From the NCBI GenBank assembly GCA_001830425.1, contig MIAA01000027.1, forward strand, positions 14,096-64,231: a stretch of 50,136 bases of DNA, in the 5' to 3' direction. This document shows, piece after piece, positions 1 through 3,652 of this stretch; within the stretch, counting starts at the first letter, position 1; every line of letters starts with the position of its first letter. Source of the DNA: Rhodospirillales bacterium RIFCSPLOWO2_02_FULL_58_16 (lineage in GTDB: Bacteria; Pseudomonadota; Alphaproteobacteria; Rhodospirillales; 2-02-FULL-58-16). The position numbers and the translations under genes are program-made. The notes beneath the pieces were generated by a model. The model was not told the DNA's origin and made no database searches. It was given only the letters and a program-made list of their open reading frames with translations.

Positions 1-239
1 CCATCGCCGTCGCCGTCGCCATCGCCGTCACCGTCGCCGTCACCATCGCCGCCGCCGCCACCGCCGCCGGAAGCCGAGGCCGGGGTGAGTCCCAGCAATG
101 CCGGCGCCATGTAAACGGCCAGCGCGGTAAGGCCAAGCCTGGTCAGCGCGGCCCTGCGGCCCTCGTTGATTTCGCAAGTTTCCTTGGAGGTTTCATCAGT
201 CGGAACGGTCTGTTCGATAAGGTTTTCGGTGGTGGTCAT
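1..239 (-). CDS. Secreted small protein with Gly-Asp repeat, possible modified-peptide precursor (3' end outside window)
   Basis: Reading leftward from the ATG at 239, 79 residues are visible before the window edge. Residues 1-27 are polar. Two arginines (28-29) precede a hydrophobic stretch (about 35-51) and an Ala-Ser-Ala site (54-56), which looks like an export signal. The Arg-Arg pair makes Tat export possible, but the usual Tat Phe-Leu-Lys context is absent. A run of seven glycines (58-64) and at least eight Asp-Gly units follow, running off the window. A GAGGGA ribosome-binding site lies about 9 nt upstream of the ATG. The gene is divergent from an HPr-kinase-like gene and a PqqD-family gene, so a role as their substrate is attractive, but this is inference. 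It could instead be an unmodified acidic, metal-binding secreted protein. I recognise no named family. Confidence 0.72.
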   Translation of the reverse strand, partial: MTTTENLIEQTVPTDETSKETCEINEGRRAALTRLGLTALAVYMAPALLGLTPASASGGGGGGGDGDGDGDGDGDGDGD

Positions 240-348
240 CGTGACATCCCTCATGTTTTATAATTCAACCCGGACAAAATGTCGCGCTCATGCGAACCTT
301 ACCGTATAGTTTGACAAAGCGATCATTAACCGACGATGAATAATATAA

Positions 349-1188
349 ATGCTCCTTTCATTTGAAGGAATGTCCCGACCGATTTCCCTGATCGGATGCG
401 GGGAATTAAAGCCGATGATCATGGCGGTTCTTCGCGGCTGGCAAATCCGGGAGGTTGCGTCCGGCGGATCGCCGTTGCCGATCATCGAGATCGAGAAAAC
501 CGACAAGGGATACCGCCGCAAATCGCCATGGGTCGATAAACCGGCCGTCTTCACGGACGGCGTTGACGCCGTTTGTGATTTTCTGGTTGACCTGATCAGA
601 TACCACATTTCAGACGGGATTCCGCAACTATGCCTTCATTGCGCGGCGGCGGCTTTCACCTCCGACCTGATGATCTTTCCCAGCGCCTACGAGGCCGGAA
701 AAAGCACCCTGTCCGTCCATTTGGCGGCGCACGGCGCACGGCTGTTCGCCGATGATGTCCTCCCTTTGGAGAACTCAAGCAATAACGGCATTGCGCCAGG
801 AATCCTGCCGCGTTTGCGCTTGCCCCTTGCCGACGACGCCGGCAAGATTTTTCATGATTTCGTCGCCCGCCGCCAAGGATTGCAAAACGACCGTTTTCTC
901 TATGTGGGCCTGAAGGAGAATGAATTAGCGCCGCTGGGAACAACGGCGCCGATCCGCAATATCATTATGCTCAAGCGTGATCCGGGAGGAAAAACCGAGT
1001 TGGTCCCGGCCAAAAAAAGCGACACCCTCAGGGATTCCATCATGCGAAACTTTTCCGGCAACGTGCCGGCGATCAAGATACTTGACCGTCTGCACGCCGT
1101 CGTCGAATCCGCCCGATGCTACGCCCTGCACTACACTTCCGGCGATGACGGCGCCCGCGTGTTGCGCGATGCCTTCGCTCGGGAATAA
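349..1188 (+). CDS. HPr kinase-like P-loop protein (HprK-related)
   Basis: A 279-residue protein with a P-loop at residues 111-120 (Pro-Ser-Ala-Tyr-Glu-Ala-Gly-Lys-Ser-Thr), followed by Leu-Phe-Ala-Asp-Asp at 133-136. This is the layout of HPr kinase/phosphorylase-fold proteins, where the acidic pair follows the P-loop by about 20 residues. A Leu-His-Cys-Ala-Ala segment (97-101) just before the P-loop is typical of HprK-related proteins outside the phosphotransferase system. No PTS gene is visible nearby. The next gene, 9 nt downstream, is PqqD-like. From memory, such kinase/PqqD pairs are named the HPr-rel-A system, and HprK homologues phosphorylate some lasso peptides. The substrate here is unknown. 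The start at 349 is the first ATG; an ATG at 370 sits directly after GAAGGA, too close to serve as a normal Shine-Dalgarno. Confidence 0.72.
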   Translation: MLLSFEGMSRPISLIGCGELKPMIMAVLRGWQIREVASGGSPLPIIEIEKTDKGYRRKSPWVDKPAVFTDGVDAVCDFLVDLIRYHISDGIPQLCLHCAAAAFTSDLMIFPSAYEAGKSTLSVHLAAHGARLFADDVLPLENSSNNGIAPGILPRLRLPLADDAGKIFHDFVARRQGLQNDRFLYVGLKENELAPLGTTAPIRNIIMLKRDPGGKTELVPAKKSDTLRDSIMRNFSGNVPAIKILDRLHAVVESARCYALHYTSGDDGARVLRDAFARE

Positions 1189-1197
1189 GATCGGAAC

Positions 1198-1503
1198 ATG
1201 AACCTTACCCGGCGCTATGTCCGCAACCCGAATGTCGTTGAAAGGACTGTTGATGACGCAACTTTTCTCGTCGGTGCCGACAACAAATCGCTGTATCACC
1301 TGAACCCGTTGGCCGCCGCCCTGTGGACGCTGCTGGCCGATCCGATCTCTGTTAACGAGGCCTGCGCCGTCATCCATCAAGCCTTTCCGGACGCAGGAAG
1401 GAAAAACATCAGGAACGACGTTGCCGCCCTGATTTCCGACCTGAAAACCAACGACCTTGTCATCATCGGGAAACGGCCTGAAAATACCTCTCGGCAAAGA
1501 TGA
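1198..1503 (+). CDS. PqqD family protein (peptide chaperone / RiPP recognition element)
   Basis: A 101-residue protein with the PqqD-like order: N-terminal basic strand, a Leu-Val-Gly beta hairpin, the Tyr-His-Leu-Asn-Pro-Leu-Ala-Ala-Ala-Leu-Trp segment (about 38-48) and a C-terminal winged helix ending in an acidic helix that leads to a Leu-Val strand. PqqD proteins bind leader peptides and present them to modifying enzymes. It is co-directional with the HprK-like gene, 9 nt away, so the two are very probably cotranscribed. No PQQ biosynthesis genes are present, so a role in PQQ synthesis is unlikely. The last few residues are polar and probably disordered. Family assignment is good; the client peptide is unknown, with the divergent Gly-Asp-repeat protein as the nearest candidate. 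Confidence 0.8.
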   Translation: MNLTRRYVRNPNVVERTVDDATFLVGADNKSLYHLNPLAAALWTLLADPISVNEACAVIHQAFPDAGRKNIRNDVAALISDLKTNDLVIIGKRPENTSRQR

Positions 1504-1581: not shown

Positions 1582-2694
1582 ATGTCCGACGGCAGTCACA
1601 ATGTAAAAGTCTGGGATGCTCCCACCCGCATATTCCATTGGCTGCTGGCGGCGCTGGTGATTCTCGGCATAATCACCGGCTTCCTGTCTCCGGAATGGTG
1701 GATGGGCGTTCATATCTGGGCCGGCTACGGCATTGTTGTCCTGATCGTCTTCCGTCTGGTCTGGGGCGTCTATGGTTCGGAATACAGCCGCATCGGCAGC
1801 TTCGTCTTTCCGCCGCGCAGAATCGTTGAGCACCTTCGCGGCGTGCTGATGATGCGCCCGCCCCACTATCTGGGCCACAATCCCACCGGCGCCGTTATGA
1901 TTTTCGCCCTGATGATCTTCCTCGTCGTCATCAACGTCAGCGGCCTGTTGGTCCTCGGCGGCGAGGAAAAGCAGGGTCCGCTGGCCGGAATCGCCCGCTA
2001 TCCCCTAGGCAACGCCGCTAAAAACATTCACCTGTTTCTGGTAATTACCTTGATGACGATGATCGTCGGCCATGTTGTCGGCGTCATCGTCGAGTGCTGG
2101 ATAACCAAAGAAAACCTGGTGAAGTCGATGATCACCGGCATGAAGTCGCTGCCTGACGGGACGCCGGTTCCCGAACACCGCGCTTCCCGTCCCTTGCCGG
2201 CGATGATTACGATGGTCCTGTTCACGGCAATAGCGGGGGCCATTCTGGGATTTCTGGGCCAGATGCCGCCTGTCGGCCACCAGGCGCTGCCTGATTTCCC
2301 CGTATACAATACGGAGTGCGGCGACTGCCACATGGCCTATCACCCCAGTCTGTTGCCGGAAAAATCCTGGAAAGAATTGATGTCCGGTCTGGATGATCAC
2401 TTCGGCGAGGCCGCCACCCTGGATGACGCCACAGTCCGCGACATAACCGCGTATCTGAGTTCATACGCCGGGGATTACTGGGACACCGAGGCTTCCAACC
2501 GCTTCCTTAAGGTTTCTCCGGAAAAGCCTCTGCAAATTTCAGAGAGTCCTTATTGGGTAATCAAACATGAGAAAGTCAACGATATCGTATTCAAACGTAG
2601 GAGCGTTAAAGGAAAAGGGAACTGCATAGCTTGCCACAAGGACGCGGCGACAGGCCGCTTCGATGATCAAAAAATCAACATTCCGGAGAACTGA
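1582..2694 (+). CDS. Cytochrome b561-type membrane protein fused to a dihaem cytochrome c (DHC) domain
   Basis: A 370-residue fusion. Residues 1 to about 190 are a cytochrome b561 / hydrogenase cytochrome b domain: it opens with Val-Trp-Asp-Ala-Pro-Thr-Arg-Ile-Phe-His-Trp and has four hydrophobic helices with conserved histidines for two haems b. A fifth helix (about 205-225) anchors a periplasmic C-terminal domain with two c-type haem motifs, Cys-Gly-Asp-Cys-His (246-250) and Cys-Ile-Ala-Cys-His (348-352). That domain resembles the separate dihaem cytochrome c encoded at 3128-3652. The likely role is electron transfer across the membrane between quinol and the soluble cytochromes encoded next. 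A GAAGGAG ribosome-binding site precedes the ATG by about 10 nt. The gap to the next gene is 5 nt, so the three haem genes form an operon. Donor and acceptor are not shown by sequence. Confidence 0.85.
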   Translation: MSDGSHNVKVWDAPTRIFHWLLAALVILGIITGFLSPEWWMGVHIWAGYGIVVLIVFRLVWGVYGSEYSRIGSFVFPPRRIVEHLRGVLMMRPPHYLGHNPTGAVMIFALMIFLVVINVSGLLVLGGEEKQGPLAGIARYPLGNAAKNIHLFLVITLMTMIVGHVVGVIVECWITKENLVKSMITGMKSLPDGTPVPEHRASRPLPAMITMVLFTAIAGAILGFLGQMPPVGHQALPDFPVYNTECGDCHMAYHPSLLPEKSWKELMSGLDDHFGEAATLDDATVRDITAYLSSYAGDYWDTEASNRFLKVSPEKPLQISESPYWVIKHEKVNDIVFKRRSVKGKGNCIACHKDAATGRFDDQKINIPEN

Positions 2695-2699
2695 CAATC

Positions 2700-3119
2700 A
2701 TGAAAAAAATCAGCGTTTTTGTTCTGTCCTGCGCCGTCGGCGGACTCCTGGCCTCCCCCGCTTTCGCCGGACCCCGCGAGTCCATCCTTGGCGATCTGGC
2801 GGCCCAGGCGAAGGCGGCTGACCCCGGCTTTTCGGCTTTTTCCGCCGAGCGCGGCAAAGCCCTGTTTACCAAAAACTTCGGCACAGGCTCGCCTGAAACT
2901 CCGGCATGCACGTCCTGCCACGGCACGACGCCCCAGTCCGGCGGCCAGACCCGCGCCGGCAAGCCCATCGACCCCATCGGCGTCTCCAAGACCCCCGACC
3001 GCTACACCGATCCCAAGAAGGTGGACAAGTGGTTCGGCCGCAACTGCCCCAGCGTTATCGGTCGTGAATGTACGCCCATTGAGAAGGGCGACTTTATTAC
3101 CTTTATGGCCGGCCAGTAA
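2700..3119 (+). CDS. SHP-like monohaem cytochrome c (DUF1924 family)
   Basis: A 139-residue protein with a signal peptide ending at Ala-Phe-Ala (residues 21-23) and one haem motif, Cys-Thr-Ser-Cys-His (70-74). The C-terminal segment has Arg-Asn-Cys (114-116) and a second Cys at 124. This agrees with sphaeroides haem protein (SHP), where an asparagine is the sixth, displaceable haem ligand and lies near a disulfide. Asn115 would be that ligand and Cys116/Cys124 the disulfide. SHP binds oxygen or nitric oxide when reduced and is reduced by a dihaem cytochrome c, here encoded on both sides. The position between a cytochrome b-DHC fusion and a stand-alone DHC matches the known cytochrome b/SHP/DHC gene set. 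The physiological function remains uncertain in the family. Confidence 0.85.
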   Translation: MKKISVFVLSCAVGGLLASPAFAGPRESILGDLAAQAKAADPGFSAFSAERGKALFTKNFGTGSPETPACTSCHGTTPQSGGQTRAGKPIDPIGVSKTPDRYTDPKKVDKWFGRNCPSVIGRECTPIEKGDFITFMAGQ

Positions 3120-3127
3120 GGATAAGC

Positions 3128-3652
3128 ATGATGAAATTTGTACTGGCGATCCTTTTGACGCTGTCGGCGCTGCCGGCTCTGGCCGGCGGACCATTCCCGG
3201 CGATTGCCGACGAGGCCGTCGCCAGGGAATGCGGCGAGTGCCATATGCTGTACTATCCGCAGATGCTTCCCCAAAAGTCGTGGAAGATCATCATGGACGG
3301 GCTGGCCGACCATTTCGGCGAGAACGCCGCCCTGGAACAGGATGTCCTCAAGAAGGTCACCGACTACCATGTCGCTAACGCCGCCGACGTGGACGACAAC
3401 AGGTTGGCCAAGAAGTTCATGGAGGGCGTGGACTTGAGCAATCCGCCGCTCAAAGTTACCACGACGCCGCGTTTCATCAAAAAGCACAGCGGCATCCCGG
3501 ATCAGGTTTTTACTCAGAAAGAAGTCGGCTCCAAGGCCAGATGCGGCGCCTGCCACCTTAACGCCAAGGACGGCAGGATTGACGATGACGACGCAGTAAT
3601 TCCCGGATACATCAATCTGTTCGGCGTCACCAGCATCAAAAAGTTCTGGTAG
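3128..3652 (+). CDS. Periplasmic dihaem cytochrome c (DHC)
   Basis: A 174-residue protein with a signal peptide (residues 1 to about 19, ending Ala-Leu-Ala) and two haem motifs, Cys-Gly-Glu-Cys-His (35-39) and Cys-Gly-Ala-Cys-His (139-143). It is clearly homologous to the C-terminal domain of the cytochrome b fusion two genes upstream: both have Glu-Cys-Gly-(Asp/Glu)-Cys-His-Met followed by a Lys-Ser-Trp and Asp-His-Phe-Gly-Glu segment. Known DHC proteins reduce SHP. It is the last gene of the three-gene haem operon and starts 8 nt after the SHP stop. No haem-maturation genes are nearby. Confidence 0.87.
   Translation: MMKFVLAILLTLSALPALAGGPFPAIADEAVARECGECHMLYYPQMLPQKSWKIIMDGLADHFGENAALEQDVLKKVTDYHVANAADVDDNRLAKKFMEGVDLSNPPLKVTTTPRFIKKHSGIPDQVFTQKEVGSKARCGACHLNAKDGRIDDDDAVIPGYINLFGVTSIKKFW

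Follow-up and report, generated by a model that had tools for sequence, protein, structure and literature searches.

RiPP recognition elements (RREs) are known as peptide-binding modules in natural-product pathways, and bind leaders as an extended strand. The discrete RREs of lasso peptide pathways recognise the motif [Y/W]xxPx[L/V/I/A/F/Y]. In the system of linear polyphosphorylated peptides (LPP, lpp cluster), described from Bacillota, the kinase LppK adds phosphate to Ser3 in the core of a precursor that has a YxxP leader; the RRE is LppB, whose binding requires YxxP and whose Asp70 bonds to the leader Tyr (PMC13381572). LPP includes its own SipW-like peptidase, an NTP transferase and an MsbA-like exporter, and its leader conforms to YxxPxVLxHQxIxFETxxS (PMC13381572). 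HprK-related kinases and PqqD-family proteins are also paired under the name HPr-rel-A in the NCBI models (TIGR04352 and TIGR04353, respectively). No paper in the open library searched contains 'HPr-rel-A' or 'HprK-related', and 'undescribed' as used here refers to that library and the copies of Pfam and NCBIfam used.

The locus analysed here lies at the left end of a 50,136 nucleotide window, the term used for the whole stretch of DNA analysed (G000:C27:14096-64231), on a 121 kb contig of the 2.73 Mb genome of Rhodospirillales bacterium RIFCSPLOWO2_02_FULL_58_16. It resembles LPP in its HprK-like kinase, discrete PqqD-fold RRE, YxxPx[V/L] leader, signal-peptidase-type cleavage logic and variable C-terminal parts. 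However, no SipW-like peptidase, NTP transferase or MsbA-like exporter is encoded among the genes neighbouring the window-type pair of kinase and PqqD-family protein, the leaders share only YxxPx[LMFI] with that of LPP, the motif is situated in the core of a signal sequence, and the proteins on which the pair would act (the clients) are complete exported proteins, among them cytochromes. An HprK-like kinase and a discrete B1 RRE also occur in paeninodin-type lasso loci, but the window-type motif has Y in place of W. A lasso pathway was rejected, with the B2 leader peptidase (PF13471) unmatched in the whole genome and no macrolactam cyclase in the genes flanking the pair. A PQQ pathway, with which the locus shares the PqqD fold, was likewise rejected, as the PqqD equivalog model gave 16.1 bits against a cut-off of 46 and no PqqE scored over cut-off in the genome. 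As in HPr-rel-A loci, the HprK-related kinase and PqqD lie beside a small exported protein with an RR-type leader, and the preliminary description had brought up this pairing. The NCBI models do not bear out that assignment: the kinase matches TIGR04352 weakly (37.5 bits; cut-off 200) and the window PqqD has no TIGR04353 match at E 1, while two bona fide HPr-rel-A PqqDs score 53.5 and 66.5 bits. HPr-rel-A loci, unlike those of the window type, also hold nucleotidyltransferase-like and asparagine-synthase-like genes. We class the system, so far undescribed, as a novel form of RRE-guided modification by an HprK-like kinase, distinct from LPP, lasso, HPr-rel-A and PQQ.

The exported proteins and their leader

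The three-gene layout given in the preliminary description was recovered, with the open reading frame of a Gly-rich exported protein and the genes for the kinase and the PqqD-family protein diverging from a shared upstream region (Table 1). The client frame extends from an ATG at position 239 to the window edge, and an in-frame ATG upstream, at 254, is a less likely start since AGGGA is found 7 nt before the former. A 42-N assembly gap (L007:14054-14095), inside the client gene, abuts the left edge of the window, and beyond it the gene consists of Gly-Ala repeats (GAGAGAGG)n up to a stop at L007:13801, with GGTGL at the C-terminus. As the repeat left of the gap is open in all three frames, the frame across the gap is taken from the GGTGL ending, which is common to relatives (L050 and L121). 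The Gly-Asp repeat emphasised earlier is present in the visible part of the protein, but is replaced further left by these Gly-Ala repeats, and it is not a conserved feature: the leader is conserved, while the clients range from Gly-rich repeat proteins to dihaem cytochromes. Outside the gap, the acceptors after AxA in the window client are Ser57 and one Thr. A DUF4189 exported protein encoded left of the client gene (L007:13280-13738) was rejected as a client, as it forms no cluster with the genes of other loci.

Table 1. Features of the locus, in window coordinates
Feature	Position	Strand	Basis
Client gene (first 79 codons) for a Gly-rich exported protein	1..239	-	ORF; leader profile E 2.1e-13
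Gly tract and Gly-Asp repeat	3..68	-	ORF translation
Leader/signal-like segment, residues 28-57 (RRAALTRLGLTALAVYMAPALLGLTPASA-S)	69..158	-	Alignment; 44 distinct leaders
AxA-S (A54 S A56 / S57), probable cleavage site of signal peptidase; Ser a candidate phospho-acceptor	69..80	-	
Site at which PqqD is predicted to bind as RRE: YxxPxL (Y43 M A P46 A L48)	96..113	-	44/44 leaders
Shared divergent upstream region, 109 bp	240..348	.	Intergenic, client vs kinase
HprK/PEPCK-fold kinase, 279 aa	349..1188	+	21 orthologs including that of the window; AlphaFold2
P-loop of the kinase, SAYEAGKS; GKS is invariant, the usual first Gly is replaced	682..705	+	Aligned to 3tqf
PqqD-family discrete RRE, 101 aa	1198..1503	+	Pfam, profile and structure matches
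PqqD Asp74, aligned with LppB Asp70	1417..1419	+	Asp in 18/18 family members
SHP-type operon, neighbour and not core: cytochrome b561-DHC fusion (1582-2694), DUF1924 (2700-3119), DHC (3128-3652)	1582..3652	+	

Leaders were first sought in the sequence preceding the kinase genes by a pattern lacking YxxP, and afterwards by profile. Those found in this way form one family with the pattern RRxAL..LG......YxxPxL..L..AxA-S, or in longer form the consensus xxNRRxALAxLGLAAxxAYxxPxLxSLxxAxASG, in whose alignment L, L, G, Y, P, L and A are invariant. Forty-four distinct leaders were found in all, and each has the motif YxxPx[LMFI] (the last position being L in 37, M in four, F in two and I in one); in the first 80 aa of other N-termini its frequency is 10/270, and among signal-like N-termini 2/64. 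On its own the 44/44 count is partly circular, since the profile used in the other leader searches includes the motif; a profile in which the six motif columns were masked retrieved eighteen leaders, four of them absent from profile building, and the motif is present in 18/18. An AxA-like site likewise occurs in 44/44 leaders and is followed within three residues by Ser in thirty-nine. In the other five clients no Ser directly follows AxA, and four of these five are gammaproteobacterial proteins with a Ser further on. The PqqD-family protein had earlier been supposed to bind residues 1-27 of the client; the predicted site is instead Y43xxP46xL48, within the signal-like segment. The leader, and those Gly-rich clients that were scanned, are matched by no model in Pfam or NCBIfam.

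Two kinds of protein bear the leader, namely repeat proteins of low complexity and dihaem c-type cytochromes. Several Gly-rich repeat clients end in G[TI]GL, while those of loci L111-L114, outside the order, carry YSRP/SRP repeats and not Gly repeats. Others combine the leader and a linker with a dihaem cytochrome c domain (DHC, PF09626), as does the second client of the window genome (L117:6908-7483, contig C16), a dihaem cytochrome c with a Gly linker that matches DHC with 86 bits.

The kinase and the PqqD-family protein

The AlphaFold2 model of the kinase (pLDDT 93.3) matches PEPCK with a Z score of 15.0 (260 residues, 4.2 Å) and HprK with a Z score of 13.4 (130 residues, 2.6 Å), and its His, GKS and DD residues align with those of HPr(Ser) kinase 3tqf. 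The residues invariant in the alignment include W31, H97, P111, G117-K118-S119, D135-D136, R155, R157 and R210. All twenty-one kinase orthologs match TIGR04352 at E <= 0.01, the best at 8e-14. A canonical HPr kinase with a role in the PTS was rejected, as PTS genes are absent at the locus and the score against the Pfam HPr kinase C-terminal domain (11.9 bits) is below the cut-off of 33.3. A viral origin was also rejected, with no match in IMG/VR kinase searches. A separate HprK-like frame of 155 aa is found on another contig of the same genome (G000:C52).

The PqqD-family protein passes PF05402 (44.4 bits; cut-off 23.4), and its best curated match is lasso_PqqD_Strm, below cut-off, a model that all sixteen relatives match too. 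Comparison of the family profile with PDB sequences gave TbiB1 as the best match (2.8e-11), followed by 9x8z, 9x90 and TfuB1, where 9x8z and 9x90 are taken to be LppB and PbaB1 on the basis of residue spacing. The top structure match of its AlphaFold2 model (pLDDT 86.8) is the TbiB1-leader complex 5v1v (TM 0.74/0.83). In the column of LppB Asp70, the Asp conserved in the family is also found in the YxxP binders TbiB1, LppB and TfuB1, with Gln in the WxxP binder PbaB1, and the column of LppB N33 holds Asn or Asp in 18/18 window-type PqqDs. By contrast, none of the nine readable HPr-rel-A PqqDs, whose clients lack the Tyr, has Asp in the Asp70 column, a comparison which is suggestive only, since some of the HPr-rel-A rows are weak matches. 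The prediction that the window PqqD is an RRE recognising the YxxPxL of the leader is well supported.

Distribution, gene order and neighbourhood

Twenty-one strong kinase matches, including that of the window, were found among 248 genomes of the order, the others sharing 37-48 % identity with it. When only strong matches are counted, both leader and kinase occur in eighteen of these genomes, the kinase alone in three, the leader alone in two and neither in 225 (Fisher 2e-22). Among 398 genomes of the phylum the corresponding counts are 8/0/0/390 (Fisher 7e-17), the genomes with a leader being exactly those with a strong kinase match; these p values ignore phylogeny, the eight phylum genomes representing some four or five lineages. 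Pairing is not seen in G009, with three leader proteins and a distant, partial kinase match only, or in G025, where the kinase is present and no leader was found. Since the leader is common to forty-four distinct proteins and twenty-one orthologous kinases occur in the 248 genomes of the order, the locus is not a chance arrangement. The Gly-rich protein, proposed earlier as the client, is very probably so, the leader family tracking the kinase across order and phylum. Two findings that would have spoken against it were looked for: homologues are not mostly without HprK/PqqD, and no different conserved client adjoins the pair in the loci read.

At the twenty-one kinase loci the PqqD is encoded separately in seventeen and fused to the kinase in two (L045 and L048); that of L047 was overlooked by the simple gene caller and found by profile in L094, which covers the same stretch, and no PqqD was found beside the kinase of L054. 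A leader is encoded upstream of the kinase in thirteen loci with enough upstream sequence and is absent in L036 and L048, with the genome of L036 (G092) encoding a leader protein on another contig. In the remaining kinase loci the contig ends near the kinase, two of them (L035 and L039) within Gly-rich repeat, where an assembly break is plausible. The contigs of L035, L039 and L062 all end within or near such repeat, comparable to the 42-N gap at the window. Leader and kinase genes diverge in some lineages and point in the same direction in others. Each genome has one to three leader proteins, encoded beside the kinase-PqqD pair or elsewhere, and one kinase of the window type. In six loci outside the order (L110-L114 and L116), kinase-PqqD fusions directly adjoin leader proteins. 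In G263, leader and kinase lie some 40 kb apart, with the PqqD beside the kinase, while in G096 the kinase is found beside one leader protein and the PqqD beside another, on a different contig. The named carriers are mostly Rhodospirillales MAGs, together with a gammaproteobacterial symbiont of Solemya and MAGs that bear the label Deltaproteobacteria or Gammaproteobacteria.

In the window the pair is followed by genes for a cytochrome b-DHC fusion, DUF1924 and DHC which, together with regulators, make up the gene set described for SHP operons (PMC2909971), and the DHC family is also that of some clients. Genes for PepSY, response-regulator and sensor-kinase proteins are located left of the pair (L007 8967-11557). 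Neither the window-type kinase nor its PqqD figures in the SHP operons as described in the text consulted (PMC2909971), and the remaining loci that were read show no SHP operon. L050 and L051 also have the full set of PepSY, response regulator and sensor kinase genes close to the kinase, while in L046 the response regulator and sensor kinase genes are found there. Given the leader-fused DHC proteins, a link of the system to an SHP-type electron-transfer chain is attractive.

Proposed phosphorylation of the clients and competing explanations

The explanation that we consider probable is modification ahead of export: PqqD would capture the client by its leader and the kinase would add phosphate to it, with one kinase and one PqqD serving all leader-bearing proteins. 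The client N-terminus would be both a signal sequence (positive n-region, hydrophobic core and AxA) and an RRE leader, with YxxPxL in the core. As a discrete RRE, PqqD is predicted to capture YxxPxL, with Asp74 holding the Tyr, and the signal core would thereby stay covered in the cytoplasm during the kinase reaction. There the HprK-like kinase would transfer phosphate from ATP to the captured client. The most likely site is Ser57 just after AxA, and the conserved Ser is the position closest to LppA Ser3; the other visible candidate acceptor is the Thr of the C-terminal GGTGL. In the order of events that we infer, release from PqqD would free the client for general export and for signal peptidase I, and phosphorylation may affect this export. 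A single S26 signal peptidase was found in the window genome, on contig C14, and would cleave the client after export. The single kinase and single PqqD would act on both the Gly-rich repeat proteins and the leader-fused dihaem c cytochromes of the cell. Dihaem c cytochromes need export before haem attachment, so with such clients phosphorylation would have to precede Sec transport. This requirement counts against the explanation, as do the very few acceptors after AxA in the window client, the five clients without Ser directly after AxA and the unpaired genomes G009 and G025; nor do we know of a solved example in which the motif read by an RRE lies in the core of a signal sequence.

That position of the motif would suit PqqD as a dedicated signal-sequence chaperone, in which case the kinase would never modify the client but would switch capture and release by way of another target, be it PqqD, some small molecule or an export factor. 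The near absence of Ser, Thr and Tyr after AxA in the window client points the same way, and kinase-PqqD fusions would suit self-regulation. We nevertheless regard this as unlikely, as the characterised RRE-HprK pair of LPP, the closest precedent, phosphorylates the RRE-bound precursor (PMC13381572) and a Ser follows AxA in most clients. Less probable still is that the phosphate is only an intermediate, through which the kinase primes the client for further modification, for example with a nucleotidyl or sugar group: a nucleotidyltransferase-type gene adjoins the kinase in paeninodin and LPP loci (PMC13381572) and in HPr-rel-A loci, but no such gene recurs beside the pair in the loci read. It is very improbable that the leader is an ordinary Tat/Sec signal peptide, conserved through shared ancestry only. 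Its RR and AxA resemble a signal peptide, but RR is present in just 29/44 leaders, mature parts as unrelated as Gly repeats, SRP repeats and dihaem cytochromes follow one and the same leader, and the DHC paralog at 3128-3652 of the window has an ordinary signal peptide without YxxP. A metabolic role for kinase and PqqD, close to Gly-rich genes by chance or shared regulation, is scarcely credible: the fold is common to metabolic enzymes such as PEPCK, but leader and kinase have an identical distribution in the phylum, the association is kept despite varying gene order and orientation, and the RRE contact residues are conserved.

If client phosphorylation is correct, RRE-guided modification would move from peptides to a protein secretome: what the RRE seems to recognise is a motif hidden within signal sequences that belong to ordinary exported proteins, dihaem cytochromes among them, and the kinase is its only constant partner; a class of orphan HprK-like kinases would also gain a testable client. 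A possible but tentative extension is a phospho-tagged secretome, in which the RRE-kinase pair marks unrelated exported proteins via a common leader before export, perhaps for a common extracellular redox or matrix structure, with HPr-rel-A as a parallel branch with its own leader. This parallel would offer a candidate client for a family which the NCBI models name without one, namely the small exported protein encoded in the HPr-rel-A loci L154-L165. Four such proteins were scanned and gave no convincing Pfam or NCBIfam match. Their conserved leader (RRRRLLKGL...VPxxxTLxxGAALA) is found beside PqqD and HprK_rel_A in at least eleven of the twelve loci.
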